Assembly: GCF_036711975.1 (NCBI RefSeq)
Contig: NW_027248941.1
Location: 744,001-808,000 of the forward strand
Direction: 5' to 3'
DNA length: 64,000 nucleotides
Origin: Onthophagus taurus
Lineage: Eukaryota > Arthropoda > Insecta > Coleoptera > Scarabaeidae
Under the pieces are notes generated by a model. The model saw only the letters and a list, made by a program, of their open reading frames with translations, had not been told where the DNA came from and did no database searches. Of the stretch, positions 11,318-63,800 are shown piece by piece. The position numbers and the translations under genes are program-made. Position 1 is the stretch's first letter. The number at the start of each line of letters is the position of its first letter.

Positions 11318-11475
11318 GAAAAATCCTTTAAAATGAGTCCAAACTCGCCGGGGTTATTTACAAAAACAAATATTGCGTAGATGGCGCTCGTTGTAAATCC
11401 GCCATTTTGGAAAAATTATTTTTAAAGATAACCCCATCGAGTTTAGGCTCATTTTAAAGGATTTTCCAAATCCAA
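11318..11475. repeat. Solo foldback unit upstream of the 5'-nucleotidase gene
   Basis: A single copy of the palindromic module that forms the large array in intron 3. The head has TCCTTTAAAATGAG and CCAAACTCG, the centre has AGATGGCGC and CGCCATTTTGG, and the tail is the inverted head. The rest of 11143-11870 is AT-rich and shows no gene. Confidence 0.75.
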
Positions 11476-11895
11476 TTTAATAAAAACAATTATTTTTAAT
11501 TTTAACGATATTTTTAACAAAGATTTTAAATAAGAAAGCGAAAAATCAAATAGAAATCATTTTTTTCGATTATATAACATTAATTAATATTTCGCGGCTC
11601 ACTCAACCGTTAAATTATGCAAATTAAAACCAATAATCGGATTCAATCTTCGTTATACAATCGTTTTAATAGTTAAAAATGTATTACTAAGCCCAGTTTT
11701 TAAATAAACACCATCAAAACAAGTTACAAATAAATATATGATGTGATAAATGATGAATTATCAATAAATTGCACCCGATAAAATCAAAAAAAAAGTTTTA
11801 AATATCTTATAGAGATAAAACGGATTAAAAATCGAAACGTGCCGTCGTTTTTCATCGCCAAAAATTAATTCGTGGTGAGATTCCAACGAATTAAA

Positions 11896-14800
11896 ATGAT
11901 TTCTTTAACGAAAGGGTTAATAATAGTGGGCGTTATCGTGGTTATTGCGGTCGTTTCGAGTGTTACCGCGGTTTTATTGACCGGAAACGATGATTTGGAG
12001 GAAGAATACAATTTTCGATTATCAATAATACATCTAAACGATTTTCACGCCCGTTTTGAAGAAACTTCAACCGATTCGGGGTCGTGCAAATCAAACGAAT
12101 GCATTGGGGGTATTTCTAGAGTTTACACCGCCGTTAATCAGTTGAGAGAATCGCGAGTTAACCCGATTTTTTTAAACGCCGGGGACAATTTTCAAGGGAC
12201 TTTGTGGTATAATTTGTTTAAATGGAACGTTACCGCGCATTTTTGGAACATTTTAGAACCGAACGTTACGGTAAAACTTTAATTATTTCATTTTTAATTA
12301 ATTAATTAACGACGATTTTTAGACTCTGGGTAATCACGAATTTGATGACAAAATCGAAGGTTTGGTTCCGTTTCTGAACGCGCTCAATTCCCCGATTGTC
12401 GTTTCCAACATTGACGACTCCGAAGAACCCACAATGCAAGGGTTGTACGAAAAAAGTACCGTTTTGGAGGTGGATGGGAGAAAAATCGGCGTCGTTGGAG
12501 TCATTTTATCAACAACAAACGTAAAGTTAAATTGACATTTATTAAAATTGACGTTTAAAAAAAAAAAACGTTTAAAAATTAATTTCCCCCAGAAAAAAAA
12601 AGTTACTAAGTCACTTCATCAATAATAAACGTGAAGTAATTGACGTTTAAAAAAAAAACTTATAAAAATTAAATTCCCCCAGAAAAAAAAAAAAGTTACT
12701 AAGTCACTTTATCAATAACGTGAAGTAATTGACATTTAAAAAAAAAACTTATAAAAATTAAATTCCCCTAAAAAAAAAAATAACTACGTCATATTTTAAT
12801 TTGACGTTTTGAGGTTAAATTAAAATTTTGTTGTAGGAAATCGCTTCAACGGAGAAATTAAAATTTTTGGATGAATCCGAGAGCGTTAATAAAGAAGCGG
12901 AACGCCTTTTTAACGAGGAAGGTGTATTCACGGTGATTGTTTTGTCTCATTGTGGTTACGAAGTAGATCAAGAAATTGCCCGGAAAGCAATCCCCGGAAT
13001 CAGTGTGATCGTTGGGGCTCACTCCCACACTTTGTTATACAACGGTAAAGATAATTTAATAACAAAATTAAAGGTGTATTTAAGAATCATCAGTTCGCAT
13101 AAAAATCGAGATTTTTTTTTAATCGCTCAAGTAAGCCGTTGTTTGTATCAAATTTGATATGAAAAATCCTTTAAAATGAGCCCAAACTCGATGGGATTAT
13201 CTTTAAAAATAATATTTCCAAAATGGCGGATTCTCAACGAGCGCCATCTACATAATATTCATTTTTGAAAATAACCCTATCAAGTTTGGGCTCATTTTAA
13301 AGGATTTTTCATTTCTAATCTAATCAAAATAATTAAATTTAAAATAACTCGTCTTAATTATTAGCCATTTTAAAAATGTTGTAATTAATTTTTTTTTAAA
13401 TGCTTATTTTTATTAAATTTGATAAGAAAAATCCTTTAAAATGAGCCCAAACACGATGGGGTTATCTTTAAAAATAATATTTCCAAAATGGCGGATTCTC
13501 AACGAGCGCCATCTACAAAATATTCGTTTTTGAAAATAACCCCGTCGAGTTTGGACTCATTTTAAAGGATTTTTCATTTCTAATCTCATCAAATTAATTA
13601 AATTTAAAATATCCCGTCTTAATTATGAGTCATTTTGAAAATGTTGTAATTAATTTTTTTTTAAAATGCTTATTTTTATTAAATTTGATATGAAAAATCT
13701 TTTAAAATGAGCCCAAACACGATGGGGTTATCTTTAAAAATAATATTTTCAAAATGGCGGATTCTCAAAAAGCGCCATCTACAAAATATTCGTTTTTGAA
13801 AATAACCCCGTCGAGTTTGGACTCATTTTAAAGGATTTTTCATTTCCAATCCCATCAAAATGATTAAATTTAAAATAACTTGTCTTAATTATTAGTCATT
13901 TTAAAAATGTTATAATTAATTTTTTTTTAAAATGCTTATTTTTATTAAATTTGATATGAAAAATCCGTTAAAATGAGCCCAAACTCGATGGGGTTATCTT
14001 TAAAAATAATATTTCCAAAATGGCGGATTCTCAATGAGCGCCATCTACAAAATATTCGTTTTTAAAAATAACCCCATCGAGTTTGGACTCATTTCAAAGG
14101 ATTTTTCATTTCTAATCTCATCAAAATAATTAAATTTAAAATAATCCGTCTTAATTATTAGGAACTTTGAAAATGTTGTAATAAATTTTTTTTTAAATGC
14201 TTATTTTTATTAAATTTGATATGAAAAATTCTATAAAATGAGCCCAAACACGATGGGGTTATCTTTAAAAATAATATTTCCAAAATGGCGGATTCTCACG
14301 AGCGCCATCTACAAAATATTCGTTTTTGAAAATAACCCCGTCGAGTTTGGACTCATTTTAAAGGATTTTTCATTTCTAATCTAATCAAAATAATTAAATT
14401 TAAAATAACTCGTCTTAATTATTAGCTATTTTAAAAATGTTATAATTAATTTTTTTTTTAAAATGCTTATATTTATTAAATTTGATAAGAAAAATCCTTT
14501 AAAATGAGCCCAAACACGATGGGGTTATCTTTAAAGATAAATTTTTTCAAAATGGCGGATTATTAACGAGCGCCATCTATTAAATATCTGTTTTTAAAGG
14601 TAACCTCGTCGAGTTTGGACTCATTTTAAAGGATTTTTCATTTCCAATCCCATCAAAATGATTAAATTTAAAATAACTTGTCTTAATTATTAGTCATTTT
14701 AAAAATGTTATAATTAATTTTTTTTTAAAATGCTTATTTGTATTAAATTTGATATGAAAAATCCTTTAAAATGAGCCCAAACTCGATGGGGTTATCTTTA

Positions 14801-17800
14801 AAGATAGTTTTTCCAAAATGGCGGATACTCCACGAGCGCCATCTACAAAATATTCGTTTTTAAAAATAACCCCATCGAGTTTGGACTCATTTCAAAGGAT
14901 TTTTCATTTCTAATCTCATCAAATTAATTAAATCTAAAATAACCCGCTTTAAATATTAGCCATTTTGAAAACAATTTAATAAAATATTTTTAAAATAATC
15001 AATCTTATCAAATTTGATATGAAAAATCTTTTAAAATGTGCCTAAACTTGATGGGGTTATTTTTAAAAATATTTTTTCCAAAATGGCGGGTTCTCAACGA
15101 GCGCCATCTACAAAGTATTCGTTTTTGAAAATAACCCCGTCGAGTTTGGATTCATTTTAAAGGATTTTTCATTTCTAATTTCATTAAAACAATTAAATTT
15201 AAAACAATTATTAGTCATTTTTAAAATTATTAATAATTAAGCTTTCTTTAAATAAATTGTTAAAATTAAAAATAATTATTTCTGTTATATTGGGAATGAA
15301 AAATCCTTTAAAATGAGCCCAAACACGATGGGGTTATCTTTAAAGATAATTTTTCCAAAATGGCGGATATTCAACGAGCGCCATCTACGAAATGTTAGTT
15401 TTTAAAGGTAACCTTGTCGAGTTTGGACTCATTTTGGAGGATTTTTCATTTCTAATCTCATCAAAACAATTAAATTTAAAATAATTATGAGTCATTTTTA
15501 AAATGATAAATAATTAAGTTTTTCTTCAAATTATTAAAATTAAAAGTATATATTTCTGTTAAACAGGGAATGAAAAATCCTTTCAAATGAGCCCAAACTC
15601 GATGGGGTTATCTTTAAAGATAGTTTTTCCAAAATGGCGGATACTCCACGAGCGCCATCTACAAAATATTCGTTTTTGAAAATAACCCCGTCGAGTTTGG
15701 GCTCATTTTAAAGGATTTTTCATTTCTAATCTCATCAAATTAATTAAATTTAAAATATCCCGTCTTAATTATGAGTCATTTTGAAAATGTTGTAATTAAA
15801 TTTTTTGTTAATGCTTATTATTATTAAATTTGACATGAAAAATCCTTTAAAATGAGCCCAAACACGATGGGGTTATCTTTAAAAATAATATTTCCAAAAT
15901 GGCGGATTCTCAACGAGCGCCATCTACAAAATATTCATTTTTAAAAATAACCTAGTCGAGTTTGGACTCATTTTAAAGGATTTTTCATTTCTAATCTCAT
16001 CAAATTAATTAAATTTAAAATAACCCGCCTTAATTATTAGCCATTTTGAAAATGTTGCAATTAATTTTTTTTTTAAATAATTATTTTTATCAAAATTGGT
16101 ATGAAAAATCCTTTAAAATGAGCCCAAACTCGATGGGGTTATCTTTAAAAATAATATTTCCAAAATGGCGGATTCTCAACGAGCGCCATCTACAAAATAT
16201 TCGTTTTTAAAAATAACCCCGTCGAGTTTGGACTCATTTTAAAGGATTTTTCATTTTTAATTTCATCAAAACAATTAAATTTAAAATAATTATGAGTCAT
16301 TTTTAAAATTATTAATAATTAAGCTTTCTTTAAATAAATTATTAAAATTTAAAATAATTATTCCTGTTAAATTGGGAATGAAAAATCCTTTAAAATGAGC
16401 CCAAACTCGATGGGGCTATCTTTAAAAATAATATTTCCAAAATGGCGGATTCTCAAAAAGCGCCATCTACAAAATATTCGTTTTTGAAAATAACCCCATC
16501 AAGTTTGGACTCATTTTAAAGGATTTTTCATTTCTAATCTCATCAAATTAATTAAATTTAAAATAACTCGACTTAATTATTAGCCATTTTGAAAATGTTG
16601 TAATAAATTTTTTTTTTTAGATAATTATTTTTATCAAATTTGATATGAAAAATCCTTTAAAATGAGTCCAAACACGATGGGGTTATCTTTAAAAATAATA
16701 TTTCCAAGATGGCGGATTCTCAACGAGCGCCATCTACAAAATATTCATTTTTGAAAATAACCCCGTCGAGTTTGGACTCATTTTAAAGGATTTTTCATTT
16801 CTAATCTCATCAAAATGATTAAATTTAAAATATCTCGTCTTAATTATTAGCCATTGTAAAAATGTTGTAATTAATTTTTTTTTAAAATACTTATTTTTAT
16901 TAAATTTTATATGAAACATCCTTTAAAATGAGCCCAAACTCGATGGGGTTATCTTTAAAAATAATATTTCCAAAATGGCGGACTCTCAACGAGCGCCATC
17001 TACAAAATATTCGATTTTAAAAATAACCCCGTCGAGTTTGGACTCATTTTAAAGGATTTTTCATTCCTAATCTCATCAAAATGATTAAATTTAAAATAAT
17101 CTAACTTAACGACATGATGATTCTTAAATTTTTCCAAATTTAATTAAAAATAATTCAATTTTAAAGGAACCCCACCAAACGGAATCGCTTACGGCCCATA
17201 TCCCACATTAATCGAAAACGAGGAAGGACAACAAATTTTAATAGTACAAGCTTCTGCTTACACGAAATATTTGGGGGATTTAATCGTCGATTACGACGAA
17301 AACGGAAATGTGATTAATTACGAAGGGAGCCCCATTTATTTGGATCACACCGTCCAAAAAGGTTAGAGCACGAAGTGAATTTTACTTCAATTAGTACTGA
17401 TAATAATAATTTTAGATGAAATGATTGACGAATTACTCACTCCATGGAAAGAAGAAGTAGACGCATCCGGAAATCGACTTTTAGGCCACACCAACGTCCA
17501 TTTAGATCAATCATCCTGTAGAACCAGCGAATGCAACTTAGGAAACTTCATAACAGACGCGATGGTTGCTTATGTAAAATAAAATTCTTCCTGAAACAAT
17601 TTCAAAAAATTAATTTATTAACTTTTAGTTCGCCAATGAAGCAGAAGAGGGATCATGGACCGCAGCTCCAATCGCGATAATAAACGCGGGGGGAATACGA
17701 ACTTCAATAAATAAAGGAGGTTAATTTAAAATGATGAAAAAATGAATTAAATTAAAATTAAAACACTTTTAGATATATCATTCAACGATTTGGCAACGTC

Positions 17801-18742: not shown

Positions 18743-19130
18743 GTTTTGATTTTATTATTATTTTGACGTTTATGACACAATGCTAAACATAACCTTAAAA
18801 TGATTTAAAACGTTTTTTTACTTACATTTTTACCTTTTTTCTTGATATGAACACATCGTAAAGTTGAAATTAAATTGTTTGATTGAATTTGATTAATAAT
18901 TAGTTAAGTTTAATTAAAAAATATAAAAAAATTAGTTTATAATCTCAAATTAACAAATTTATAGTTGACGTATAAATATGAGTGAAGTTTGCCGCATAAA
19001 CTGACATGAACGTGGCCATTACCTTGTGAGTGCGTTCTGGTAGTTTGACATTTGATACACAGGTGTCCCATATATGTATGTATAACAAATATTCACTGTA
19101 TTTTCAAAAAGTAAACGCAAATTCTTTCAA
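18743..19130. other. Intergenic, no gene seen
   Basis: AT-rich spacer upstream of the Ly6 gene. It probably contains that gene's promoter, but no clear TATA or initiator was placed. Confidence 0.5.
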
Positions 19131-19134
19131 AAGA

Positions 19135-25135: not shown

Positions 25136-25189
25136 TTTCTATTTTAACAGCTTCAGCAAGGTTTTTGAACATTAAAAAAATGTTTGGAA

Positions 25190-28600: not shown

Positions 28601-31600
28601 AAGGTGCGGTTCATGTTAAAGCTTTTAATAAAGTCGGGTTTGTTTGTGACGATCAATTCGGGTTAAAAGACGCGGACGTCGTTTGTAAAGAAATCGGGTT
28701 CGAAGGTGCTTTAGAAATAAAAAGTAACGGATTTTATACAATTCCCGACGAATACAAAGACGATGGGTATTTAATGGATGACGTGCAATGTTCGGGGAAT
28801 GAAACCAGTCTTAAAGATTGCGATTTTAACGGCTGGGGGAACCATAATTGTCGCGCGAAAGAAATCGTGGGGGTTGTTTGCAAATCTAGCGAAGAATTCG
28901 ATTGCCCCCTTGATAAGTGGAAGTGCGAAACATCCAAGGAATGCATCCCCTTGGATTTTTTATGCGATAATGTCGATGATTGCAGTGATAACTCAGATGA
29001 GGCAGCTCAATATTGCGAGGTAAGAATAATAATTAATAAATTTAAAAAAACTTACCCATTGAGGGTTTACTTGAATTCACAAAAACAGCTCCTGTTAATT
29101 AAAAAAAGATTTGATTAGAAAAAATGATAAACATCCAAATCTCACCTTACTTTAACCACAAAATCAATTAACACCAAACAATAACACAAGAATGTTTCTT
29201 AAATTAAAAGAAATTCATTTCAAACAAACTTTTGAGGTTAAAACGAAACCGCAACGTTATTATTGTTGGGGTCTCGTCGGTTGCCATGGAGATTTTGAGT
29301 GGTCGGTAAGGAAGAGAAATTTAAAAAAACAATCAAAAGCGCCATCTATTGAGATTTCTAAGAAATCTTTAAAAATTGTAATAATTAATTTAAAAAAAAC
29401 TTACCGAAATTTTAATCCAGCGCGGGTTTCTTGAACTCGAAACGATCTTTAATGCGTCGTAATAATTACAAATTCACAAATACAGCTCCTGTTAATTAAA
29501 AAAAGATTTTATTAGAAAAAATGATAAATACCCAAATGTCACTTTAATTTAACCACAAAATCTCATCAAAATCAATTAACACAAAAGAATAACACAAGAA
29601 TTTTTCTTAAAAGTAATAATTAAAAGAATCTTTAAGCATCTTTGCTTAATTTTTATCAATCTTTTGAGGTTAAAACGAAACCGCAACGTTATTATTGTTG
29701 GAGTCTCGTCGGTTGCCATGGAGATTTTGAGTGGTCGGTAAGGAAGAAAAATTAAAAAAAAAAAACAATTGCGCCATCTATTGAGATTTCTAAGAAATCT
29801 TTAAAAATTGTAATAATTAATTTAAAAAAACTTACCGAAATTTTAATCCATCGCGGGTTTCTTGAACTCGAAACGATCTTTAATGCGTCGTAATAATTAC
29901 AGATTCACAAACACAGCTCCTGTTAATTAAAAAAAGATTTTATTAGAAAAAATGATAAATACCCAAATGTCACTTTAATTTAACCACAAAATCTCATCAA
30001 AATCAATTAACACAAAAGAATAACACAAGAATTTTTCTTAAAAGTAATAATTAAAAGAATCTTTAAGCATTTTTGCTTAATTTTTATCAATCTTTTGAGG
30101 TTACAACGAAATCGCAACTTTATTATCATACTATTATATAATAACTAACTTCACGTTTAAAATGTCAACCTCAATTTTGACATATTTGTAATCTTCATTA
30201 AAAATCCTTTAAAATGAGTACAAACACGACATATTTATCTTCAATATTAATGAAGTTATGGTCAACTTCCGGTTAGAAATGTCAACGTCAATTTTGACAT
30301 ATTTGTAATCGTCGTGAAAAATCCTTTAAAATGAGCCCAAACATGATACGTTTAATTCCAATATTACTCGAGATATAAGCAACTTCCGGTTTGAAATGTC
30401 AATGTCATTTTGACAAATTCTTAATTTTTATAAAATTTATCACTAAAACAAAAATACAATAAAAAAATTTAAAAATTTAGGTTGGTATTAATATTTAAGA
30501 ATTAAATTGCTATCTCCATTGTTGCTAACTTCGGGTTAAACGTTTTTTTATTCAAACTTTTTTGTTTTTTGAGATAAGTGCGTCATGTTTGGACTCATTT
30601 AAAAGGTTTTTTAATAAAGAATACATCATGAAAGAACACCATGAAGTTGTCCATTTGTTTATTATATGATAACTGACTTCAGGTTTAAAATGTCAACCTC
30701 AATTTTGACATATTTGTAATCTTCATTAAAAATCCTTTAAAATGAGTACAAACACGACATATTTATTTTCAATATTAATGAAGTTATGATCAACTTCCGG
30801 TTAGAAATGTCAACGTCAATTTTGACATATTTGTAATTGTCTTGAAAAATCCATTAAAATGAACCCAAACATGATACGTTTAATTGCAATATTAGTCGAG
30901 ATATAAGCAACTTCCGGTTTGAAATGTCAATGTCATTTTGACAAATTCTTAATTTTTATAAAATGTCTTAAAATTTATCACAAAAACAAAAATACAATAA
31001 AAAAAATTAAAAATTTAGGTTGGTATTAATATTTAATAATTAAATTGCTATCTTCATTGTTGCTAACTTCGGGTTTAACGTTTTTTATTCAAACTTTTTT
31101 TGTTTTTTGAGATAAATACATCATATTTGGACTCATTTTACATCATGAAAGAACACCATGAAGTTGTCCATTTGTTTATTATATGATAACTAACTTCAGG
31201 TTTAAAATGTCAACCTCAATTTTGACATATTTGTAATCTTCATTAAAAATCTTTTAAAATGAGTACAAACACAACATATTTATCTTCAATATTAATGAAG
31301 TTATGATCAACTTCCGGTTAGAAATGTCAACGTTAATTTTGACATATTTGTAATTGTCGTGAAAGATCCATTAAAATGAGCCCAAACATGATACGTTTAA
31401 TTCTAATATTAGTCGAGATATAAGCAACTTCCGGTTTGAAATGTCAATGTCATTTTGACAAATTCTTAATTTTTATAAAATGTCTTAAGAAATTAAATTA
31501 ATTTGAGCCCAAACTCGATGGGGTTATCTCAAAAAATGCGATTTGAGCGTAAATAGATATAGATAACCGCCATTTTGGAAATAAAATTATGATTTAAATC

Positions 31601-34600
31601 ATGTTTTCTTGTAAAAAATTAAAAATGATTTAATTTGAGCCCAAACTCGATGGGGTTATCTAAAAAAATCCGATTTAAACCTAAATAGATATAGATAACC
31701 GCCATTTTGGATATAAAATTATGATTTAAATAATGTTTTCTTGTAAGATATAAAAAATGGTTTAATTTGAGCCCAAACTCGATGGGGTTATCTCTAAAAA
31801 TGTGATTTCAACATAAAATAGATATAGATAACCTGCCATTTTGGAAATAAAATTATGATTTAAATGATGTTTTCTTATAAAATATAAAAAATGGTTTAAT
31901 TTGAGCCCAAACTCGATGGGGTTATCTCAAAAAATGCGATTTGAGCGTAAATAGATATAGATAACCGCCATTTTAGAAATAAAATTATGATTTAAATCAT
32001 GTTTTCTTGTAAAAAATTAAAAATGATTTAATTTGAGCCCAAACTCGATGGGGTTATCTAAAAAAATCCGATTTAAACCTAAATAGATATAGATAACCGC
32101 CATTTTGGATATAAAATTATGATTTAAATAATTTTTTCTTGTAAGATATAAAAAATGGTTTAATTTGAGCCCAAACTCGATGGGGTTATCTCTAAAAATG
32201 TGATTTCAACATAAAATAGATATAGATAACCGCCATTTTGGAAATAAAATTATGATTTAAATGATGTTTTCTTATAAAATATAAAAAATGGTTTAATTTG
32301 AGCCCAAACTCGATGGGGTTATCTCAAAAAATATGGTTTGAGCGTAAATAGATATAGATAATCGCCATTTTGGAAATAAAATTATGATTTAAATAAGCAA
32401 CTTCCGGTTTGAAATGTCAATGTCATTTTGGCAAATTCTTAATTTTTATAAAATGTCTTAAAATTTATCACAAAAACAAAAATACAATAAAAAAAATTAA
32501 AAATTAAGGTTGGTATTAATATTTAATAATTAAATTGCTATATTCATTGTTGCTAACTTCGGGTTTAACGTTTTTTTATTCAAACTTTTTTGTTTTTTGA
32601 GATAAGTGCGTCATGTTTGGACTCATTTTAAAGGTTTTTTGATGAAGATGACAAATATGTCAAAATTGACGTTGACGTTTCCAACCGGAAGTGATTGTAT
32701 CTCCATTAATATTAAAGTTAAATATGTCGAGTTTGGACTCATTTTAAAGGATTTTTTATGAAGTTGACAAATATGTCAAAATTAAAAGTTGATAGTTCCT
32801 TCACTGGTACCTTGGTAAAAAGAGACTCAACATCGAAACTTACCAAAATATGCCGTGTTCCCTGTAAAAGGAGACAGAATCTTTGCGAAATATTTGGCCA
32901 ACTGGTATGCTAGGAAGTTGATGGCACTGACGATAGGGCGGAGGGGGACGTCTGGTTTATGAATCTTCGGTAGTCTATAAATTCTTGATAGTACCGGAGC
33001 CTGCACAAACAATCCTTTCTTAGTTCTGCTGGAATTCCTGTGGATTTTATCAGGTCCTTCATTTTCTTTCTTTCGATGCGTCGTAGATAAACACAGAAAT
33101 TCACAAACACAGGTCCTGTTAATTAAAGAAAGATTTTATTAGAAAAAATGATAAATACCCAAATCTCACCTTAATCTAACCACCAAAATCAATGGGGTCA
33201 TACACGATTTTTTTTTTATTATATTTTCTGAAAGTTTATATAAAAATATAGTTACCGTTATTTTTCTTTTTTTTATTTTCGAACAAAGTCATTGTTAAAA
33301 AAATTATTGAAAATTTATATACCCATTTGCGCTTTTAAAATTCCCGCGTTGATGACGTACGATTCTCGCTTTTGCGTCCCCTGCTCCCCGCTCAAATGCG
33401 AGAAAGAGATGAACGTCATTTAGGTTGTATTGAAAAGAGATAGAGTGTTTGTAGGTTATGTTTATTATGTTTTGTTCATGGATGTAATAGAGACACTCTA
33501 TTACATCCATGGTTTTATTTTGACACTGTCACACCGCAAGCGCTATCTAACGGATAATTTAACTTGTTTTAGGCAGTGCGGTTCCTACGTCACAGAAAAG
33601 CCGCGAAATTATTTCGTTTGAATATTTGCTATTTTTCACTTCAAATTACGCAAAATATAAAATTAATCAAAATATTTCTATTACTTTGTGTTCATGCATA
33701 TACTTGCATATATCGTTTGACATAAAAATTTTCTCTAAATTTAATAAGTGTGTATGACCCCATTTACACGACAAAATAACACAAATATTTCTCTTAAAAG
33801 CAATAATTAAAAGAATCTTTAAACATCACCAAATTTTGAGGTTAAAACGAAATCGCAACGTTATACTTGTTGCGATCGTCGGTTACCATGGTTACCGTGG
33901 AGAATTTGAGTGGTTGGTAACGAAGAAAATAAAAAGGCCGCCATCTATTGAGATTTAAAAAAAAAACGATATTTTTAGTGTAAAAATCAATATTATTATA
34001 AAACATTACACACATTTTACCTTAATTATTAATTAATATCACTTTTTTAATTAAACCATCAATAAAATTTATGTCATTTTTTGTGCGTCATTGCGAAAAA
34101 AAGTGAGGTTATAACGAAATCACCTAAAATCATCAAATTATCCAAAACTATTCGGATTAATCTTAAACGATCTTAAAGTACGTTGTATCTTGAAATGTGA
34201 TGAACGTATTTTTTAAGTTATCTTTTCAAGTGACATTTTTTGACGTTTCATTAAAAAAAATTTTATAACTCATTTTGTGTTAGAAATAAAACTAAAACTA
34301 GAAAATTAATTTAAAATTGGGTCAAATAATTACAATATTGATTTTTATTAATTAATAATAATTATTAAATTAAAAAAAAATAATGAATCGAAATTGCTTT
34401 AACACCGCCATCTATTGGACGATAATTTAATTTTGTACGATTATCTAACTTCATTTCATAATGTCAAGTTGTAAAAGCGTCACAACAAACTTTTTGATTA
34501 TATCTCGCTTAATTAAGCCGTATTTTAAGTTATTTTCAAAAATATCAACGATTTACGTAAGTTTTACTTTAATTGTTTGCATTAATCGCCATATCCTATG

Positions 34601-48644: not shown

Positions 48645-48840
48645 GAATTTTTTAATCTAATTAACCCAATTACTAAATTTTTTTTAATAAATCCCGTTAG
48701 AATCTAAAAGATCGTTTTAAAAACTTGTTTTTCTTTCTTAAATCCGAGTTATTTACATCTTTAAAGGTTATTTACCTTGTTCACGGTGACATTGACCCTG
48801 ACAACACGAGAATCACGTTGAAAAATGATGAAGATGAATG
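48645..48840. repeat. Direct repeat, left copy, flanking the 48.8-51.3 kb array
   Basis: About 190 bp repeated at about 51310-51530. Best conserved part: GGTGACATTGACCCTGACAA, then CACGAGAATCACGTTGAAAA. Also shared: AACCCAATTACTAAA, AATCCCGTTA.AATCTAAAAG and ATCGTTTTAAAAACTTGTTT. Confidence 0.8.
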
Positions 48841-51310
48841 TTTGGGTTAAAAAATAAAAAAGTTAGGTTAAAAACTGTCAAATGTCAAATTAAATATAAC
48901 GATTTCTTGATAAATGTTGAAATGACATTAATAAGAATCAAAAATGCTTTAATTTGATACCAAACACAATATATTTGGGTTAAAAAATAAAAAAGTTTGG
49001 TTATAAACTGTCAAATGTCAAAATTAAAAGTAACGATTTTTTTTAAATATTGATATGTTCTTAATAAGAATCAAAAATGCTTTAATTTGATACCAAACAC
49101 GATATATTTGGGTTCAAAAATAAAAAAGTTAGGCAAGAAACTGTCAAATGTCAAAATTAAATGTAACGCTTTTTGAAAAATATCGAGATGATCTTAATGG
49201 GAATCAAAAATGCTTTCATTTGATACCAAACATGACGTATTTAGGTTAAAAAATAAAAAACTTGGGTTATAAACTGTCAAATAATCGCCATTTTTTTTTT
49301 GGTAAAAATTAAAATATCTCGATAACGGTTAGAGATAAATAAGTCGAGTTTGGGTTCATTTTAAAGCATTTTTAATTTTCTACCCGTTTACGTTAAAAAA
49401 AGAACACCTTTATAACCAAAATTTTTGTTGTATTTAATTTTGACATTTAACAGTTTATAACCTAACCTTTCCATTTTTAACCCAAATATATCATGTTTGG
49501 TATCAAATGAAAGCAATTTTGACGGTTTTTACAATGATTGTCAGCAGAAATAAAAAAAAAAGCTAGGTTATAAACTGTCAAATAGCAAAATTAAATGAAA
49601 CTATTTTTTTTTAAATATTGAAATGATCTTAATAAGAATCAAAAATTCCTTAATTTGATACCAAACACGATATATTTGGGTTAAAAAATAAAAAAGTTAG
49701 GTTATAAACTGTCAAATGTCAAAATTAAATGTAACGATTTTTTGAAAAATACCGAAATGATCTTAATGTGATTCAAAAATGCTTTAATTTGATACCAAAC
49801 ACGATATATTTGGGTTCAAAAATAAAAAAGTTAGGTTATAAACTATCAAATGTCAAAATTAAATGAAACTATTTTTTTTTAAATATTGAAATGATCTTAA
49901 TAGGATTCAAAAATGCTTTCCTGTGATACTAAACATGATATATTTGGGTTGAAAAATAAAAAAGTTAGGTTATAAACTGTCAAATGTCAAAATTAAATGA
50001 AACTATTTTTTTTTAAATATTGAAATGATCTTAATAAGAATCAAAAATGTTTTAATTTGATACCAAACATGATATATTTGGGTTAAAAAATAAAAAAGTT
50101 AGGTTAGAAACTGCCAAATGTCAAAATTAAATATAATGATTTTTGATAAATGTTGAAACGATCTTAATAAGAATCAAAAACGCTTTGATTTGATACCAAA
50201 CACGATATGTTTGAGTTAAAAAATAAAAAAGTTAGGTTAGAAACTGTCAAATGTCAAAACTAAATATAACGATTTTTTGATAAATATTAAAATGATCTTA
50301 ATAAGAATCAAAAAAGATTTAATTTGATACCAAACACGATTTACTTGGTTCAAAAACTAAAAAAGTTAGGTTAATAACTGTCAAATGTCAAAATTAAATA
50401 TAACCATTTTTTGATAAACATTTAAATAATCTTAATAACAACCAAAAATGCTTTCATTTGATACCAAACACGATACATTTGGGTAAAAGTTAGGTTATAA
50501 ACTGTCAAATGTCAAAATTAAATATAACGATTTTTGATAAATATTGAAACGATCTTAATAAGAATCAAAAATGCTTTAATTTGATATCAAACACGATATA
50601 TTTGGGTTAAAAAATAAAAAAGGTGGGTTATAAACTGTCAAATAATCGCCATTTTTTTTTTGGTCAAAATTAAAATATCTCGATAACGGTTAGAGATAAA
50701 TAAGTCGTGTTTGGGTTCATTTTAAAGCACTTTTAATTTTCTACTCATTTATGTTAAAAAAAGAACACCTTTATAACCAAATTTTTTTTTCGTTATATTG
50801 AATTTTGACATTTGACAGTTTATAACCTAACCTTTCTATTTTTTAACCCAAATATATCATGTTTGGTATCAAATGAAAGCAATTTTGACGGGTTTTACGA
50901 TGATTGTTAGCAAAAATAATATTAAAACTAGAAACTTGGAGGTTATGCCGCGCGTCGAGACGTCAAGTTTCTAATTTTAATTTTATTTCTAACGTTCATA
51001 GAGTTGTATAACAAATTTGGGTTAAAAAATAAAAAAGTTAGGTTAGAAACTGTCAAATGTCAAAATTTAAATAAAACGATTTTTTGATAAATATTGAAAT
51101 CATCTTAATAAGAACCAAAAATGCTTTAGTTTGATACCAAACATGATATATTTGGGTTAAAACTAAAAAAGTTAGGTTAGAAACTGTCAAATGTCAAATA
51201 ACCGCCATTTTTTTTAATAAAAATTAAGATATCTCGATAACGATTAGAGATAAATAGATCGAGTTTGGGTTCATTTTAAATCATTTTTAATTTTCGATCC
51301 ATTAATAAAT
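48840..51310. repeat. Tandem array, about 130 bp, upstream of the chitinase gene
   Basis: About 17 units. Core: AAAAAAGTTAGGTTATAAAC, TGTCAAATGTCAAAATTAAA, TTTTTTGATAAATATTGAAA, TGATCTTAATAAGAATCAAA, AATGCTTTAATTTGATACCA, AACA.GATATATTTGGGTTA. Orientation switches at about 49370-49530 and 50720-50900, where reverse-complement pieces occur. Similar to the array in chitinase intron 2. Confidence 0.85.
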
Positions 51311-51530
51311 CTTTTAATGAACTTAACCCAATTACTAAAACGATTTTTTTCATAAATCCCGTTACAATCTAAAAGATCGTTTTAAAAACTTGTTTTTTTT
51401 TCTTAAAACCCAGCTATTTACATCTTATTTACATTTTTTCTACATCTTTCAAGGTGGTTATTCACCTTGTTCGCGGTGACATTGACCCTGACAACACGAG
51501 AATCACGTTGAAAAATGATAAAGAAGAAGA
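51310..51530. repeat. Direct repeat, right copy
   Basis: Second copy of the 48645-48840 segment, immediately upstream of the chitinase promoter region. It contains three TGAC repeats at 6-bp spacing (51477-51494), the same as 48787-48804. 51531-51780 is the chitinase upstream region, with a weak TATAAG at about 51724. Confidence 0.8.
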
Positions 51531-51780: not shown

Positions 51781-54700
51781 ATGATGAAAATTGGATTCAT
51801 TTTGGTTGCATTCAGTGCTTTCTTCTTCAAAGGAGGTAAAATTAATTAATTTATTCCAAATCAAACCTAATTTTTTTAATTTTAGAGGCTTCGCCATCAC
51901 GAACGGTTTGTTACTTCAGTAATTGGGCGATTTATCGCCCAGATGTCGGTAGATACACCCAAGATGATATCCCGATAGAGCTTTGCACCCACTTAATTTA
52001 CTCGTTTATTGGGGTGGATGATAAATCTTGGTCTGTTTTGGTGATTGACCCTGAATTAGACACCGATCAAAACGGATTTAGGAATTTCACCGGGTTAAAA
52101 CAAAAAAATCCTTCGCTTAAACTTCAAGTTGCCGTTGGGGGTTGGGCTGAGGGGGGCGAAAAATACTCGGCTATGGTTGCCCAAAAATCAAGAAGGGATT
52201 CTTTCATTTCCTCAGTGGTTAATTTTATGAAAAAGTATGATTTTGATGGGTTCGATTTGGATTGGGAGTACCCCGGAGCTGCTGATAGAGGAGGAAGCTT
52301 CTCCGATAAAGATCGATTCTTTTATTTCGTTGAAGAATTAAGACGGGCGTTCGATAAGGAGGGGAAAGGGTGGGAAATCACCATGGCGGTTCCCGTTGCG
52401 AAATTTAGATTGCAAGAAGGATATCACGTCCCAGAATTATGCGAGTAAGTCATTTATGTTAACACTAGACTTAGAAAACTGATGCATTTTTCGAAAAATA
52501 TTGAAATGATCTTAATAAGAATCAAAAATGCTTTCATTTGATACCAAACATGATATGTTTGGGTTAAAAAATAAAAAAGTTACGTTCGAAACTGTCAAAT
52601 GTCAAAATTAAATGTAACGATTTTTGGATAAATATTGAATTGATCTTAATAAGAACCAAAATTGCTTTAATTTGATACCAAACATGATATATTTGGATTA
52701 AAAGCTGTCAAATGTCAAAATTAAATGTAACGATTTTTTGATAAATGTTAAAATGATCTTAATAAGACTCAAAAATGCTTTAATTTGATACCAAACATGA
52801 CGTATTTGGGTTAAAAAATAAAAAGTCAGGTTATAAACTGTCAAATGTCAAAATTAAATGTAACGATTTTTTGATAAATATTGATATCATCTTAATAAGA
52901 ACTAAAAATGCTTTAATTTGATACCAAACATGATATATTTGGCTCAAAAAATAAAAAAGTAAGGTTATAAACTGTCAAATAATCGCCATTTTTTTTGGTA
53001 AAAATTAAGATATTTCGCTAACGGTTAGAGATAAATATGTCGAGTTTGGGTTCATTTTAAAGCATTATTAATTTTCTACCCATTTATATTAAAAAAAACA
53101 TTTATAGAGTTGCATAATATGATACAGCAGAATACATATCAATTTTGACATTTGACAGTTCTAACATAATTTTTTTATACTCGGATCAAAAACATGACAG
53201 GTCAAACATGACATATTAATACGTCATCTTATATTTGTAATATTTCTAATTTGACAAGTGACATTTGTGAAGTGACACATTCAATGTCATTTTTTATTAA
53301 CATATATTTACCATTCCTGCGATGACATGTAACATACATGCTTTCATTTGATACCAAACATGATACCCTTGGGTTAAAAAGTATAAAGTTGGTAAATAAC
53401 TGTCAAATGTCAAAAACGATTTTTTGATAAATACTGATATGATCTTAATAAGAATCAAAAATGCTTTCATTTGATACCAAACATGATATGTTTGGGTGAA
53501 AAAATAAAAAAGTTAGGTTAGAAACTGTCAAATGTCAAAATTAAATGTAACGACTTTTTGATAAATATTGAACTGATCTTAATAAGAATCAAAAATGCTT
53601 TCATTTGATACCAAACATGATATATTTGGATTAAAAAATGAAAAAGTTACGTTCGAAGCTGTCAAATGTCAAAATTAAATGTAACGATTTTTTGATAAAT
53701 GTTAAAATGATCTTAATAAGACTCAAAAATGCTTTAATTTGATACCAAACATGACGTATTTAGGTTAAAAAATAAAAAGTTAGGTTATAAACTGTCAAAT
53801 GTCAAAATTAAATGTAACGATTTTTTAATAAATATTGATATTATCTTAATAAGAATCAAAAATGCTTTAATTTGATACAAAACATGACGCATTTGGCTCA
53901 AAAAATAAAAAAGTTAGGTTATAAACTGTCAAATAATCGCCATTTTTTTTTGGTAAAAAATAGGATATCTCGATAATGGTTAGAGATAAATATATCGAGT
54001 TTGGGTTCATTTTAAAGCATTTTTAATTTTCTGCCCATTTATATTAAAAAAAAACATTTATAGAGTTGCATAATATAATACAGCAGAATACATATCAATT
54101 TTGACATTTGACAGTTCTAAGATAATTTTTTTATACTCGGATCCAAAAACATGCCAGGTCAAACATGACATATTAAAACGTCATCTCGCTTATATTTGTA
54201 ATATTTCTAATTTGACAAGTGACATTTGTGAAGTGACACATTCAATGTCATTTTTTATTAACATATTTTTATCATTCCTGCGATGACATTTAACATACAT
54301 GCTTTCATTTGATACCAAACATGATACCCTTGGGTTAAAAAGTAAAAAAGTTGGTAAATAACTGTCAAATGTCAAAAACGATTTTTTGATAAATATTGAT
54401 ATGATCTTAATAAGAATCAAAAATGCTTTCATTTGATATCAAACATGATATGTTTGGGTGAAGAAATAAAAAAGTTAGGCTAGAAACTGTCAAATGTCAA
54501 AATTAAATTAACGATTTTTTGATAAATAATAAAGTGATGTTGATAAAAATCGAAAATGCTTTAATTTGATACCAAACATGATATATTTGGGTTAAAAAAT
54601 AAAAAAGTTAGGTTAACAACTGTCAAATGTCAAAATTAAAAGTAACGATTTTTTTAAAAATATTGAAATGATCTTAATAAGATTCAAAAATGCTTTCATT

Positions 54701-56307
54701 TGATACCAAACATGACGTATTTGGGTTAAAAAATAAAAAGTTAGGTTATAAACTGTCAAATGTCAAAATTAAATTAACGTTTTTTTGATAAATATTGAAA
54801 TGATCTTAATAAGAATCAAAAATGCTTTAATTTAATACCAAACACGATATGTTTATGTTAAAATATAAAAAAATTAGGTTATAAACTGTCAAATGTCAAA
54901 CATACGCCATTTTTTTTTTGCTAAGAATAAAGATATTTCGATAACGGCTTGAGATAAATAAGTCGAGTTTGGGTTCATTTTAAAAGATTTTTAATTTTCT
55001 ATCCATTAACGTTAAAAAAAGGGCACCTTGATAACCAAAAAATTTTACGACTTTATCCGAGTCATCAAAAAATTTATTTCTTTTCAAGATTATTAGACGC
55101 TATCCACGTAATGTCCTACGACCTCCGCGGAAATTGGGCCGGATTCGCAGACACCCACAGCCCCCTTTATAAGCGCCCCCACGATCAATGGGCTTACGAA
55201 AAATTAAACGTGGTAAGTAATAAATTACAACACAAAACAAATTCGTTCAAAAATTTCTAAATTAGAACGACGGATTACAATTATGGGTCGATTACGGATG
55301 CTCACCAAAAAAACTCATCGTCGGGATCCCCTTTTATGGAAGAACCTTCACTTTAAGCAATAGCAACAAAAATTATAACCTAGGAACTTACATTAATAAA
55401 GAAGCAGGAGGAGGTGAACCTGGGAAATACACAAACGCTTCTGGATTCTTAGCTTATTATGAAGTAAGCTTATTTTTTTTAATTAACTTAATAAATTAAT
55501 TCATTTAAATTTTTTAGATTTGTGCTGAGGTTCAAAATAAAGAATCTGGGTGGGTGGTTCAATGGGATGATTATGGAAAAGTTCCCTTTGCTTACAAAGG
55601 TAACCAATGGGTTGGTTATGAAGACCCTAAAAGTGTCCAAATCAAAATGGATTTTATAAAAGAGAAAGGTTATGGAGGTGCTATGACGTGGGCTATTGAT
55701 ATGGATGATTTCCATGGGTTATGTGGACCACAAAACGTTTTAATGCACATTTTATATGCTAATATGAAAGGATATAATGTTCCAGAACCAACTTTAACAA
55801 CAACACCAAGGGTACTAATTATAATTAATTAATCAATTAAGGAATCAATTAAGTAATAATTAAATTAATTTTTTTAAGCCTGAATGGGCAAGACCTCCAA
55901 GTACTTCCTCTGATGGAACTGTTACCACCACAACAGGAAGTTGGCAATCACCCCAAAGTAGTACCACGCCATCCACAACACAAAAGATAACCTCACCAAC
56001 ACCAACAACTGAAAAAATAACAACCGAAAATATTAATAAACCCGGAAATGAGGTTATAAACGGAAACGAAATTAATTGCGACGGAAAAGATTTTGTCCCC
56101 GATAAAGATTGTACCATAGTAAGTTTATTTCTTAATCAAAATAATTAATAATAAGTACTAACCTTTTTATCTTTGTAGTATTACCGATGCGTTCATGGAA
56201 AACCAACATTCTTCCAATGCAGAGACGGATTAGTTTTTCACACGCAAAGTTTCATATGCGATTGGCCTAGTAATGCAGATAGAGAATATTGTAAGAACTT
56301 AGCGTAA
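51781..56307 (+). CDS. Cht: Family 18 chitinase with C-terminal CBM14 domain
   Basis: Secreted endochitinase of the insect gut/cuticle group, probably the single-catalytic-domain group IV type. Exons: 51781-51835, 51886-52444, 55089-55212, 55266-55463, 55518-55811, 55879-56118, 56179-56307; all GT-AG and in frame, 532 residues. Signal peptide [18 protein letters not shown], then the GH18 motifs: [25 protein letters not shown], the catalytic [11 protein letters not shown] with its proton-donor Glu, [27 protein letters not shown] and [12 protein letters not shown]. All four GH18 signature regions are intact, so it should be active. A Thr/Ser/Pro linker (exon 6) leads to a CBM14 chitin-binding domain ([24 protein letters not shown]). 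Intron 2 is 2.6 kb of tandem repeat. Which paralogue it is cannot be decided from sequence alone. Confidence 0.95.
52455..55065. repeat. Tandem array in chitinase intron 2
   Basis: Same 130-bp family as 48840-51310. It contains a larger, about 960-bp, duplication: 53100-53410 and 54050-54370 match closely, including a non-array insert with GTGACATTTGTGAAGTGACA and ATTCCTGCGATGACAT. Confidence 0.85.
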
Positions 56308-59800: not shown

Positions 59801-59938
59801 ATAAATAATCACTTCACTTAGAAATGATCATTATTGATTTAATAATGAAATTTCAAAATTACATCTCTCCTAAAATCTTACATCAACATAATCATCATTT
59901 ATTATTTAAAAATGTAATTTTGATTACCTTTCTTTTAG

Positions 59939-59972
59939 TATAAAAACGTATAATTTGAAGTAAATCCTCATT
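59939..59972 (+). promoter_or_regulatory. TATA plus initiator of the gustatory receptor gene
   Basis: TATAAAA at 59939-59945 and an initiator-like TCATTT with its A at 59970, 31 bp downstream, the standard insect spacing. It predicts a 5' UTR of about 23 nt before ATG 59993. Inferred from sequence only. Confidence 0.5.
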
Positions 59973-59992
59973 TGAATACAAATAGTGTCAAA

Positions 59993-61366
59993 ATGACCAT
60001 AAAAAAGAACGTAACTGTTAAACCAATCGACGATACAATAAACACAACAAATAAACAAAAATCGATTTTACCACAACAAAATCGTTTGTGTTTGTGCAAA
60101 GTTTTAAGCCCAACGTTTAATTTGTTGCGAATTTTCGGCTTATTCCCGATAATTTCGAAACACCCAAAGAAAATCGAAGAGAATAATCAAAAAGAAACCG
60201 GCGACATCTTTCGGTGCAAATTCGAATTATCACCGCCATTATTAATTTATTCGTTTTTAATTGTCATTTTAATGTCAATCGAATTAATTTTCACCACAGA
60301 AATATTAAACATCTTCAAAATTTACAAAGGAAAATCATTACACGCAGTTTTAAACGCCATAAACGACATTTTATACTCGATTTTTATCGTATTATTAAAT
60401 TTCGTCAACATAATCCGATTTCCGAGATTCATAAAAACGCTAAATAAATTGGTTTCGATGCGAAACGAAAACGATTTATTGTGTCAAAGCGCTTTAATTG
60501 GAATCTTTAAAGTGCAATATTTAACGATAATCGTGTTTTTTGGTGTGTTAATGACGCAATATGTCATTATTTTTTGGTTAGATTCCGCCGAAAATTATTT
60601 GACACATTTCATTGATTACAAGTTTTATTTGAACCAATTCACGATTAATTTATTTTTTGGGTTACACATAATCTTTATTAATTTAACGTCGATCATCGTT
60701 GGAATGTCGGGGTGTTTTTTAAAGATCACATCGACCTCGTTAAATTTTGAACCTCAAAATCCCCTAAAAGATGTCGATGAGTCATCGAAGGAAGCCGAAT
60801 TTTTCGGGTTTTTTCGATACAAAATTTGCAACGAACACCATGGGGCGCCAAAAAGTATTAATAAATTTACAATCGCCGAAATAATCGAGTATTTGAGGTG
60901 TTTACACGAAGATATTAGCTTGTTAAGTTACGAAATTAATGATTGTTTGGATCCGCAGTTCTTATTACACATCATTTTGGAGTTATCGGCGTTGATTATT
61001 AATTGGTACGCGGTTATTTTGTATTTGGTTTACGATTTTACTTCGGAAATCGCTAAAACGATCAATATTTTAAACATTATTTTCGTAACAGTACACACAA
61101 TTGGGTTATTAACCTTCTTAAAGCACGCCCAACAACTCCAAAACGTCGTTAAAAACTTAATCGATTTCTTATTGGAGTTTGCCACGAAGATTACCACACC
61201 TGAGGAGCACCAACAAATCCGAATTTTCGTGCATAAATTAAAAATTCATCGCCCGTTAACGGCTAGTGGCGTTTTTAACATCGATTTGGGAATCGCCGGC
61301 CCGGTTTTCGCGAATATTTTAACTTATGTATTAGTCGCGCTTCAATTTGATGTCGCAAAAGACTAA
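59993..61366 (+). CDS. Gustatory receptor (7tm_7 family), intronless
   Basis: Seven-helix insect chemoreceptor of the Gr family, a ligand-gated cation channel subunit with an inverted (inside N-terminus) topology. 457 residues in a single exon. Hydrophobic helices start near SPPLLIYSFLIVILM, AINDILYSIFIVLLNF, YLTIIVFFGVLMTQYVIIFW, LFFGLHIIFINLTSIIVG, LLHIILELSALIINWYAVI and INILNIIFVTVHTIG. The C-terminal signature is GVFNIDLGIAGPVFANILTY followed by VLVALQF, that is, the TYhhhhhQF motif of insect Grs. An in-frame TTG lies upstream, but ATG 59993 is the start. No sugar or CO2 subfamily hallmark is recognisable; probably a bitter/other lineage receptor. The stop codon abuts the downstream tandem array. 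Confidence 0.9.
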   Translation: MTIKKNVTVKPIDDTINTTNKQKSILPQQNRLCLCKVLSPTFNLLRIFGLFPIISKHPKKIEENNQKETGDIFRCKFELSPPLLIYSFLIVILMSIELIFTTEILNIFKIYKGKSLHAVLNAINDILYSIFIVLLNFVNIIRFPRFIKTLNKLVSMRNENDLLCQSALIGIFKVQYLTIIVFFGVLMTQYVIIFWLDSAENYLTHFIDYKFYLNQFTINLFFGLHIIFINLTSIIVGMSGCFLKITSTSLNFEPQNPLKDVDESSKEAEFFGFFRYKICNEHHGAPKSINKFTIAEIIEYLRCLHEDISLLSYEINDCLDPQFLLHIILELSALIINWYAVILYLVYDFTSEIAKTINILNIIFVTVHTIGLLTFLKHAQQLQNVVKNLIDFLLEFATKITTPEEHQQIRIFVHKLKIHRPLTASGVFNIDLGIAGPVFANILTYVLVALQFDVAKD

Positions 61367-63800
61367 AAAATTAGAATCCTCGCGAAAAATCCTTTAAAAC
61401 GACACCAAACTCGATGGGGTTACCTCCAAAAACAACGGAGATATCGCCGATTTCGTTACCAAACATAACCTAAAAATTGAAACGTCACCTGTCAAAATTA
61501 ATTTAACTTTTTTGTTTTTTAAAGTGGATATATCGTGTTTGGTGTTGTTATAAAGGATTTTTTGAGCCGATTACGATTATTTTTTTGTTAAAAATTGTTT
61601 TGTTCTAATAATAAAAAAAATTTTTTTTTATTAAAAAATTAGAATCCTTGCGAAAAATCCTTTAAAACGATACCAAACTCGACGGGGTTACCCCCAAAAA
61701 CAACGGAGATATCGCCTATTTCGTTACCAAACATAACCTAAAAATCGAAACGTCGCCTGTCAAAATTAATTTAATTTTTTTGTTTTTTAAAGTGAATATG
61801 TCGTGTTTGGTGTTGTTTTAAAGGATTTTTTGAGCCGATTACGATTATGTTTGTTAAAAATTGTTTTGGTTTAATAATAAAAAATTTTATAATAAAAAAA
61901 AATTTTTTTTTAGTAAAAAATTAGAATCCTCGCGAATTATTCTTCAAAACGACACCAAACTCGATGGGGTTACCCCCAAAAACAACGAAGATATCGCCGA
62001 TTTCGTTACCAAACATAACCTAAAAATCGAAACGTCACCTGTCAAAATTAATTTAATTTCTTTGTTTTTTAAAGTGGATATGTCGTGTTTGGTGTCGTTT
62101 TAAAGGATTTTTTGTGCCGATTACGATTATCTTTGTTAAAAATTGTTTTGGTTTAATAATAAAAAATTTTATTATAAAAAAAAATTTCTTTTTATTAAAA
62201 AATTAGAATCCTCGTGAAGAATCCTTCAAAACGACACCAAACTCGACGGGGTTACCCCCAAAAACAACGAAGATATCGCCGATTTCGTTACCAAACATAA
62301 CCTAAAAATCGAAACGTCACCTGTCAAAATTAATTTAATTTCTTTGTTTTTTAAAGTGGATATGTCGTGTTTGGTGTCGTTTTAAAGGATTTTTTGTGAC
62401 GATTACGATTATGTTTGTTAAAAATTGGTTTGGTTTAATAATAAAAAAATATTATAATAAAAATTTTTTTTATTAAAAAATTAGAATCCTCGCGAAGAAT
62501 CCTTTAAAATGACACCAAACTCGACGGGGTTACCCCCAAAAACAACGGAGATATCGCCGATTTCGTTACCAAACATAACCTAAAAGTCGAAACGTCACCT
62601 GTCAAAATTAATTTAACTTTTTTGTTTTTTAAAGTGGATATGTCGTGTTTGGTGTCGTTTTAACGGATTTTTTGAGCCGATTACGATTATGTTTGTTAAA
62701 AATTGTTTTGTTCTAATAATAAAAAAAATTTTTTTTATTAAAAAATTAGAATCCTTGCGAAAAATCCTTTAAAACGACACCAAACTCGATGGGGTTACCT
62801 CGAAAAACAACGGAGATATCGCCGATTTTGTTACCAAACATAACCTAAAAATCGAAACGTCACCTGTCAAAATTAATTTAACTTTTTTGTCTTTTAAAGT
62901 GGATATGTCGTGTTTGGTGTCGTTTTAAAGGATTTTTTGTGCCGATTACGATTATGTTTGTTAAAAATTGTTTTGGTGTAATAATAAAAAACTTTTTTTT
63001 TATTAAAAAATTAGAATCCTCGCGAAGTATTCTTTAAAACGACACCAAACTCGACGGGGTTAAGCCCAAAAACAACGGAGATATCGCCGATTTCGTTACC
63101 AAACATAACCTAAAAATCGAAACGTCACCTGTCAAAATTAATTTAACTTTTTTGTTTTTTAAAGTGAATATGTCGTGTTTGGTGTTGTTTTAAAGGATTT
63201 TTTGAGCCGATTACGATTATGTTTGTTAAAAATTGTTTTGTTCTAATAATAAAAAAAATTTTTTTTTTATTAAAAAATTAGAATCCTCGCGAAGAATCCT
63301 TTAAAACGACCCCAAACTCGACGGGGTTACCTCCAAAAACAACGGAGATATCGCCGATTTCGTTACCCAACATAACCTAAAAATCGAAACGTCACCTGTC
63401 AAAATTAATTTAACTTTTTTGCTTTTTAAAGTGGATATGTCGTGTTTGGTGTCGTTTTAAAGGATTTTTTGTGCCGATTACGATTATGTTTGTTAAAAAT
63501 TGTTTTGGTTTAATAATAAAAAAATTTTTTTTTTTATTAAAAAATTAGAATCCTCGCGAATTATTCTTCAAAACGACACCAAACTCGATGGGGTTACCCC
63601 CAAAAACAACGGAGATATCGCCGATTTCGTTGCCAAACATAACCTAAAAATCGAAACGTCACCTGTCAAAATTAATTTAACTTTTTTGTTTTTTAAAGTG
63701 GATATATCGTGTTTGGTGTCGTTTTAAAGGATTTTTTGTGCCGATTACGATTATGTTTGTTAAAAATTGCTTTGGTTTAATAATAAAAAATTTTAATTAT
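61367..63800. repeat. Nine-copy foldback tandem array downstream of the receptor gene
   Basis: Nine units of about 265-285 bp starting near 61367, 61631, 61915, 62196, 62477, 62739, 63005, 63272 and 63537. Each opens TTAGAATCCTCGCG, then CCTTTAAAACGACACCAAAC and TCGATGGGGTTACC. It closes with the inverted counterpart GTGTTTGGTGTCGTTTTAAA, then ATAATAAAAAA. Short + strand open frames repeated in two units are by-products. The first AATAAA (61610-61615) probably serves as the receptor poly(A) signal. Confidence 0.9.

Follow-up and report, generated by a model that had tools for sequence, protein, structure and literature searches.

The question raised by a 64,000-nucleotide (nt) stretch of the genome of the beetle Onthophagus taurus (contig NW_027248941.1, here C16:744001-808000; assembly of 290.8 Mb in 33 contigs), hereafter the window, is why tandem arrays of very different period should carry one and the same palindromic head module. 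The original prediction for this locus had traced the module to a foldback element or terminal repeat that repeatedly seeds new satellites. The reading favored here, to which a probability of about 0.55 can be given on what the sequence offers, is one of satellite-forming palindromes, akin to foldback elements or miniature inverted-repeat transposable elements (MITEs), with a constrained recognition core that would be bound by a putative protein. The birth of satellites and the sharing of motifs among unlike satellites are open questions with few test systems, and this genome offers thousands of copies of the motif in many sequence settings, which range from single palindromes to long arrays and lie in assembled regions that contain genes.

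A 35-nt query taken from the head is matched 65 times when up to 11 mismatches are allowed. For an independent view, a profile hidden Markov model (HMM) was trained on 254 arms of other contigs; to avoid circularity, neither the window nor L029–L035 on C16 contributed to it. At E<=1e-3 this HMM recognizes 98 arms in the window, all of them in the named arrays (A–E), in a detached second part of array B (B2) or in a solo palindrome (one + and one − arm), with no arm match elsewhere in the window at that threshold. The independent HMM thus bears out a single head module common to arrays of differing period, and the module itself proves to be an arm of about 76 nt with the consensus ATTCGTAATCTACATTAAAAATCCTTTAAAATGAGCCCAAACTCGATGGGGTTATCTTAAAAAATAACCGAGATATC. 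The window arms score roughly 18–67 bits. In controls run with a first profile, to which arms of the window had contributed, neither all loci read backwards nor 20 dinucleotide shuffles of the window give any match at E<=1e-3; relaxing the threshold to E<10 brings up 38 and 14 weak matches, respectively, the best at 7.2 and 9.4 bits. Each arm contains a bipartite core of about 32 nt, TTTAAAATGA-N2-CCAAAC-N-CGA-N5-TTATC, whose constant letters (TTTAAAATGA, CCAAAC, CGA and TTA) are 84–100% conserved between arrays. The GGGG that had been counted as part of the shared motif is variable instead, at 52–68% conservation between arrays.

The module is abundant outside the arrays of the window, as a genome-wide search indicates: the bipartite core occurs at 7,254 places in the 290.8 Mb with at most two mismatches, while the 20-mer CCAAACWCGAYGGGGTTAYC and a 30-mer of the right arm, each with at most one mismatch, give 727 and 1,769 matches; the reversed control is 0 in all three cases. 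Solo palindromes and arrays are both present on several contigs. In the prokaryote and viral collections, a 20-letter pattern is matched in seven and two stretches, one match each, which by a rough estimate is about what chance would yield in 257 billion bases. The sample on which the following comparisons rest comprises 40 stretches, eight search loci and two 1-kb stretches, and the window plus L009–L050 hold 678 arms. The loci were picked by an exact 20-mer including part of the core, by likeness to the A palindrome, by the right-arm 30-mer, or because they lie beside the window; L001–L008, which overlap other loci, were dropped from all array work. L028 and L048, near-duplicates of L047, were omitted from the tests of longest direct repeats, arm-pair likeness, spacing, family grouping and flank duplication and counted among the uncut blocks; blocks near locus ends were left out of the edge counts.

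The sampled blocks consist for the most part of whole palindromes strung together: of the 47 uncut blocks with at least two arms, 46 start with a + arm and end with a − arm (three of the 47 being near-identical copies on contig C8), and adjacent arms are oriented +− in 288 cases, −+ in 232, ++ in 60 and −− in 30. Such strings fit palindromes seeding arrays. The inverted pairing ascribed to the module holds for every unit of A and E, each of which is one full palindrome with the + arm followed by the − arm; in B, C and D most arms share one direction, B and D having inverted arms here and there as well as at their block ends, and C having none. The potential to form hairpins is marked, with a fold z of −14.8 for the solo palindrome of L018 and −13.25 for the first unit of array A. 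At the block bounds, inverted arms some 76 nt long face inward (the same 46 of 47); they correspond to the terminal inverted repeats (TIRs) of a MITE or cut-and-paste transposon and are candidate ends. The foldback layout, with inverted repeats of tandem sub-repeats around a middle, is seen in family B only, wherein two 117-bp arm repeats face inverted ones (L049 and L050) and ++ arms are followed by −−(−) arms in L049, L050 and L030, the first two being aligned with a window piece. Copies of family B also seem to have outer sequences, TTCGGGTTTAG..CTAAACCCGA, beyond the arm repeats (L026 at about 1690 and 2417, L010 at about 5011 and L030 at about 7647), and these may be the true TIRs of a family B element.

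Beyond the arm, there is little that most arrays have in common. When array consensuses were compared in 485 between-locus pairs, with a threshold drawn from shuffles, the left arms exceeded it in 483 pairs and the right arms in 467, as against 49 for the interiors and 18 for the spacers. Thus, for most array pairs the rest of the unit is unrelated, as the original prediction had it. Array A, L029 and L035, all on contig C16, share their spacer as well, so that some arrays are copies of one another rather than separate insertions.

Further evidence comes from variation within arrays, by which the effect of constraint can be told apart from that of common ancestry. Of 32 palindromic arrays, 28 with at least three long-matching unit copies were kept (177 unit copies); the units were found by whole-unit BLAST rather than by the arm profile, positions within three bases of an alignment gap were dropped, and the core columns, those at least 90% conserved in other loci, were defined each time without the tested locus. 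Variation within arrays amounts to 2.1% in the core (243/11,656), 6.5% at variable arm columns (522/8,024) and 4.9% outside the arms (1,341/27,189), and the core varies less than the non-arm part in 27 of the 28 arrays (p 4e-7). Across 80 columns, conservation between arrays and variation within them are related with a Spearman coefficient of −0.73, and the trinucleotide-matched ratio is 0.44 for the core (bootstrap 0.35–0.56), 0.82 for intermediate columns and 1.09 for variable ones. An earlier and cruder test, which set whole arms against interior plus spacer, gave 3.9 vs 5.2%, with the arms lower in 19 of 28 arrays. Sets outside the 28 arrays show core and non-arm variation of 5.4 vs 11.1% in B (34 units), 1.0 vs 5.8% in C (6 units) and 5.5 vs 10.4% in D (22 units). 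At columns with different bases in the paired arms, 257 of 478 substitutions lead to the base found in the opposite arm, and for this reason the arms of palindromes probably exchange sequence. Such arm-to-arm conversion does not explain the slowness of the core, because among columns with agreeing arms those that are variable between arrays still show 5.9% variation vs 1.6% in the core. A short motif kept between unlike satellites and changing more slowly within them is what marks a satellite with a conserved motif box. These patterns, a position-specific constraint of which the original prediction had no hint, suggest that the core is held by more than common descent: ancestry alone does not predict them, and a recognition site would.

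Under the reading of satellite-forming palindromes, the palindromes would have been dispersed by transposition, or by the reintegration of excised or circular copies, and some of them would then have been tandemly amplified, with the adjoining DNA becoming spacer. The arrays may later have swapped units through the head, while the core would be kept by protein recognition—most likely by a transposase or a transposase-derived DNA-binding protein—and the copies with an intact core would be those that spread or were retained. Of the foldback or terminal-repeat ancestor originally proposed, the shared palindrome, the solos, the presence on many contigs and the strings of whole palindromes all speak in favor, and a mobile ancestor is only partly supported. 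The part assigned to the head in exchange may be seen in L034, where, in units of 826 bp, a flank of the 266 type passes into a body of the 117 type within the common AAAAATCCTTTAAAATGA; the three copies listed belong to one periodic array, and hence the junction is probably a single event. The switch from B to C near 31.49 kb likewise seems, read by eye, to fall within a degenerate arm. In light of these two junctions, the head appears to be, at least sometimes, a place of exchange between satellites. The conserved bipartite core offers a bait for finding the protein involved.

A further and more tentative step, one against which the odds lean, is that a putative transposase-derived or transposon-encoded protein pairs inverted sites in helical-step spacing and thereby drives excision, copying and array growth. 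Were this so, such a protein would keep making new satellites with different bodies and the same site, i.e., a selfish amplification site for euchromatic satellites. The core-to-core distances of 241 palindromes fall into classes of 93–95, 102–107, 113–117, 123–127 and 130–137 bp, about 10.4 bp apart and with few outside them. Helical phasing of arm spacing is a lead only: R is 0.69 over 53 blocks, but the distances between palindromes also give R 0.59 at 11.0 bp; with linked families counted once the spacing is not significant (p 0.10–0.38); and length changes within blocks include 3, 4 and 6 bp, which weakens the phasing. Identity between paired arms within a palindrome, at 0.698, is not significantly above the 0.687 found across palindromes (p 0.067, n=58 palindromes). 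Arrays L013, L009 and L027 mix units that differ in length by 9–10 bp.

Several observations weigh against the reading of satellite-forming palindromes. Target duplications, the search for which had been suggested as a check on a mobile ancestor, are not clearly seen in 52 blocks at fixed offsets of 0–60 bp from the arms: the best offset pair accounts for 7 blocks vs a control maximum of 6 at k=4 and 5 vs 4 at k=5, is not above control at k=6–10, and the longest direct repeats between flanks average 6.92 nt vs 6.82 nt in mis-paired controls (n=50 blocks), although old copies and indels could hide such duplications in flank tests. No empty site was found either, in that the joined flanks of L047 (contig C8) were matched at many C8 loci as separate pieces and no match crossed the junction among the 40 of 111 candidates scored. 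Of 32 arrays examined, 23 show both of their edges, and in 6 of these the spacer sequence that continues into the left and right flanks adds up to the spacer length; growth in place from a solo insertion, in its simple form, is therefore not the rule, these six alone being fully compatible with it. The C-to-B junction at 32395, read by eye, lies outside the head. Single linkage of interiors or spacers gathers the 52 blocks into 6 groups (34, 12, 3, 1, 1 and 1), and because of this chaining the arrays do not represent that many independent families and the bodies are not unrelated throughout; a first clustering that included arm sequence had merged nearly everything and was replaced by this linkage. 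Within set D the core, at 5.5%, is little below the variable arm columns (6.9%), and not all conserved columns are slow, since the C of CGA, 94% conserved, varies by 6.2%. Finally, choosing loci by a 20-mer with part of the core, by likeness to A or by the right-arm 30-mer can lower the apparent variation; against such a selection bias, the GGGG contained in that 20-mer varies faster than most stretches (6.7–9.5%), and AAAATGA, which lies outside it, is slow (0–3.8%).

Among the alternatives, the one that survives best, though it is itself unlikely, is that of a pure relic: an old MITE or foldback family seeded the arrays, and the head that they share would be inherited and serve no function today. 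Non-autonomous elements mobilized by a single transposase typically combine common arms with differing interiors, and the whole palindromes at array ends, together with the precedent of Tetris/TIR-220 (PMC4079207), are in keeping with such a history. Ancestry does not, however, slow the conserved columns within arrays, as the Spearman coefficient and the matched ratio above record, and the target duplications that old insertions might have left are not found. Less probable still is that the core is the binding site of a protein serving the host independently of any transposon, with a CENP-B-box-like, chromatin or intronic regulatory role. A short bipartite core constrained in otherwise unlike satellites, often inverted and with distance classes about 10.4 bp apart, is what such a site might look like, and in nematodes satellites that are otherwise unlike have a CENP-B-box-like motif in common (PMC3694981). 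However, the core is not a CENP-B box, the helical spacing loses significance by family and is mirrored in the periodic distances between palindromes, and selection at the level of the organism on each of thousands of scattered copies is unlikely. A yet poorer account invokes unequal exchange or illegitimate recombination only, the head being a recombinogenic word with neither transposition nor a binding protein. It can draw on the head junction of L034, on the B-to-C junction in an apparent degenerate arm and on the many substitutions that take the other arm's base, but it leaves the solo palindromes on several contigs unexplained, and the core is slow even at columns where exchange leaves no trace. 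Last, although the window is about 70% AT, the idea that the shared motif is an artefact of AT-rich or simple sequence, which the original prediction had named as its own possible undoing, can safely be set aside because the reversed and shuffled controls give no match at E<=1e-3 and the reversed patterns none in the genome.

A parallel might be struck with the satellites of Meloidogyne, whose divergent bodies share CENP-B-box-like Box 1 and Box 2 of low variability and are joined at motifs, much as at the head junction of L034 (PMC3694981). The core described here differs from those boxes in being about 32 nt long, bipartite, usually in an inverted pair, present in many short arrays and solos, and not a CENP-B box, and no leave-one-locus-out rate test within arrays was seen in the parts consulted of that study (PMC3694981). 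In Tetris/TIR-220 of Drosophila virilis, for which no autonomous partner is reported, tandem sub-repeats in the TIRs grow into a satellite (PMC4079207), a layout that family B repeats with its two 117-bp units opposed to inverted ones. Complete Tetris copies are flanked by target duplications of 8–10 bp and lead to one satellite (PMC4079207), whereas here no such duplications are found and many mostly unlike arrays share the arm. Galileo has long TIRs with repeated THAP binding sites (PMC3688188), and sites of this kind would give constrained cores in tandem units. The satellite-like arrays carried by Helentrons in molluscs (PMC7492417, PMC5139131) are likewise short and dispersed. The 70 best flank-to-flank matches are short, lie within related families or are local duplications, and no carrier common to the families appears among them; Helitron end signals were not searched for. 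By description only, TCAST of Tribolium (PMC3411249) is comparable in presenting satellite-like repeats near genes in beetle euchromatin. From known motif-sharing satellites and foldback elements this one stands apart by the length and pairing of its core, by how many arrays carry it and by the rate test applied to it. The present case is not described in the literature surveyed, which covered few subscription-journal papers and in which the sequence itself was not searched for.

Palindromes, arrays and flanking duplications of the window (coordinates within the 64,000-nt stretch)
Feature	Position	Strand	Details
Solo palindrome, A type, inverted relative to array A	11308..11476	.	arms 11308-11384 (+), 11401-11476 (-)
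Array A	13142..17099	+	Tandem Repeats Finder (TRF) 266 bp x14.8; 15 complete palindromes; 15+/15- arms
Array B	30132..31488	+	517 bp x2.6 (517/523-bp higher-order unit); tandem 117-bp arm sub-repeats; 7+/2- arms
Array C	31498..32396	+	132 bp x6.8; arms in one direction only, 6+
Second part of B (B2)	32397..32798	-	inverted arms 32581-32655 and 32697-32771 close the block; absent from the original prediction
Array D1	48841..51298	+	TRF 48841-50643, 134 bp; units of ~133 bp, arms mostly same-direction, 11+/5-
Array D1, inverted arms	49314-49384, 50675-50740, 50834-50900, 51228-51298	-	
Array D2	52486..55003	+	several TRF rows in 52486-54900 (113-267 bp); arm units of ~113-134 bp; 12+/3-
Array D2, inverted arms	53009-53075, 53963-54032, 54933-55003	-	
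Array E	61364..63790	+	TRF 267-282 bp x8.9; units 265-282 bp; 9 palindromes; 9+/9- arms
Direct duplication flanking D1	left 48646..48838, right 51308-51528	+ (left)	80% over 221 columns, E 4e-59
Direct duplication flanking the B/C block	left 29883..29993, right 33076-33190	+ (left)	90% over 115 columns

TRF recovers the arrays of the original prediction close to where they had been placed, the 523-bp array once longer periods were allowed. The solo copy, first placed at 11318-11475, is also confirmed: its two arms have profile HMM E values of 9e-16 and 1.2e-16, and it is 94% identical to the typed A palindrome. Its match to the A unit spans the palindrome plus about 20 and 38 bp outside the arms. 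That it might be a complete unit including spacer was rejected, the remaining spacer similarity being no better than that of shuffles (438/1000 as good). Array C interrupts B, of which some 66 bp occurs on each side of it, and a further inverted unit fragment lies in D1 near 49460-49520, both as read by eye. The long direct duplications around two blocks of the window (221 and 115 columns) differ from the short ones of a transposon, and the left copy of the B/C pair falls within a 431-bp repeat at 29225-30126; mis-paired flank comparisons, used as a control for such duplications, gave 33 matches at E<=1e-3 in 211.

As to the genes, array A apparently lies in an intron of a calcineurin-like/5'-nucleotidase-type gene, a placement made by eye around a Metallophos exon at 11869-12282, and D2 seems to lie within an intron of a chitinase-like (glycosyl hydrolase 18) gene, with a Glyco_hydro_18 exon at 51846-52448 and an exon downstream of D2 read by eye. 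Array E is directly downstream of a 7tm_7 chemosensory receptor reading frame. The window further holds CBM_14, SRCR, LDL and trypsin exons and a protein with RUN and Rab-binding domains. An open frame of 1,133 codons at 25717-29118 has CBM_14, PAN, LDL and SRCR domains with long Asn/Gln-rich repeats and, together with an SRCR/trypsin exon at 35047, presumably belongs to a Tequila-type protease gene.

Other repeats of the window show no match to the head arm. These include a tandem family of 275–283 bp at 1-704, 2006-2630 and 7785-8763, which has its own shared word ACGTTTCTAAA plus complement; a purine-rich array at 19441-25085 with periods of 82, 217–246 and 408 bp and GC and AT skews of up to about 0.48 and 0.51; and arrays at 44962-46998 (30, 42 and 154 bp) and 57579-59654 (371 bp x5.6). 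Rfam gives 0 matches in the window at the gathering threshold, and the telomere pattern TYAGG x6 is uninformative, with one TTAGG run only, inside contig C3. The CENP-B box TTCGNNNNANNCGGG, with at most one mismatch, is matched 8 times in the window vs 7.07 expected and never in the head arrays, and no unit of the head arrays carries nTTCGnnnnAnnCGGGn, the mark of a CENP-B box satellite. On contig C8, the L047 locus (1-6001) is repeated many times (13.3–14.2 Mb and 18.0–18.3 Mb); the head palindrome is present in the three copies read (L028, L047 and L048), and the others have a gap of similar size between their flank matches. In the one reading frame scanned outside the window, L047 carries a fragment of a Tc5/DDE_1-type transposase.

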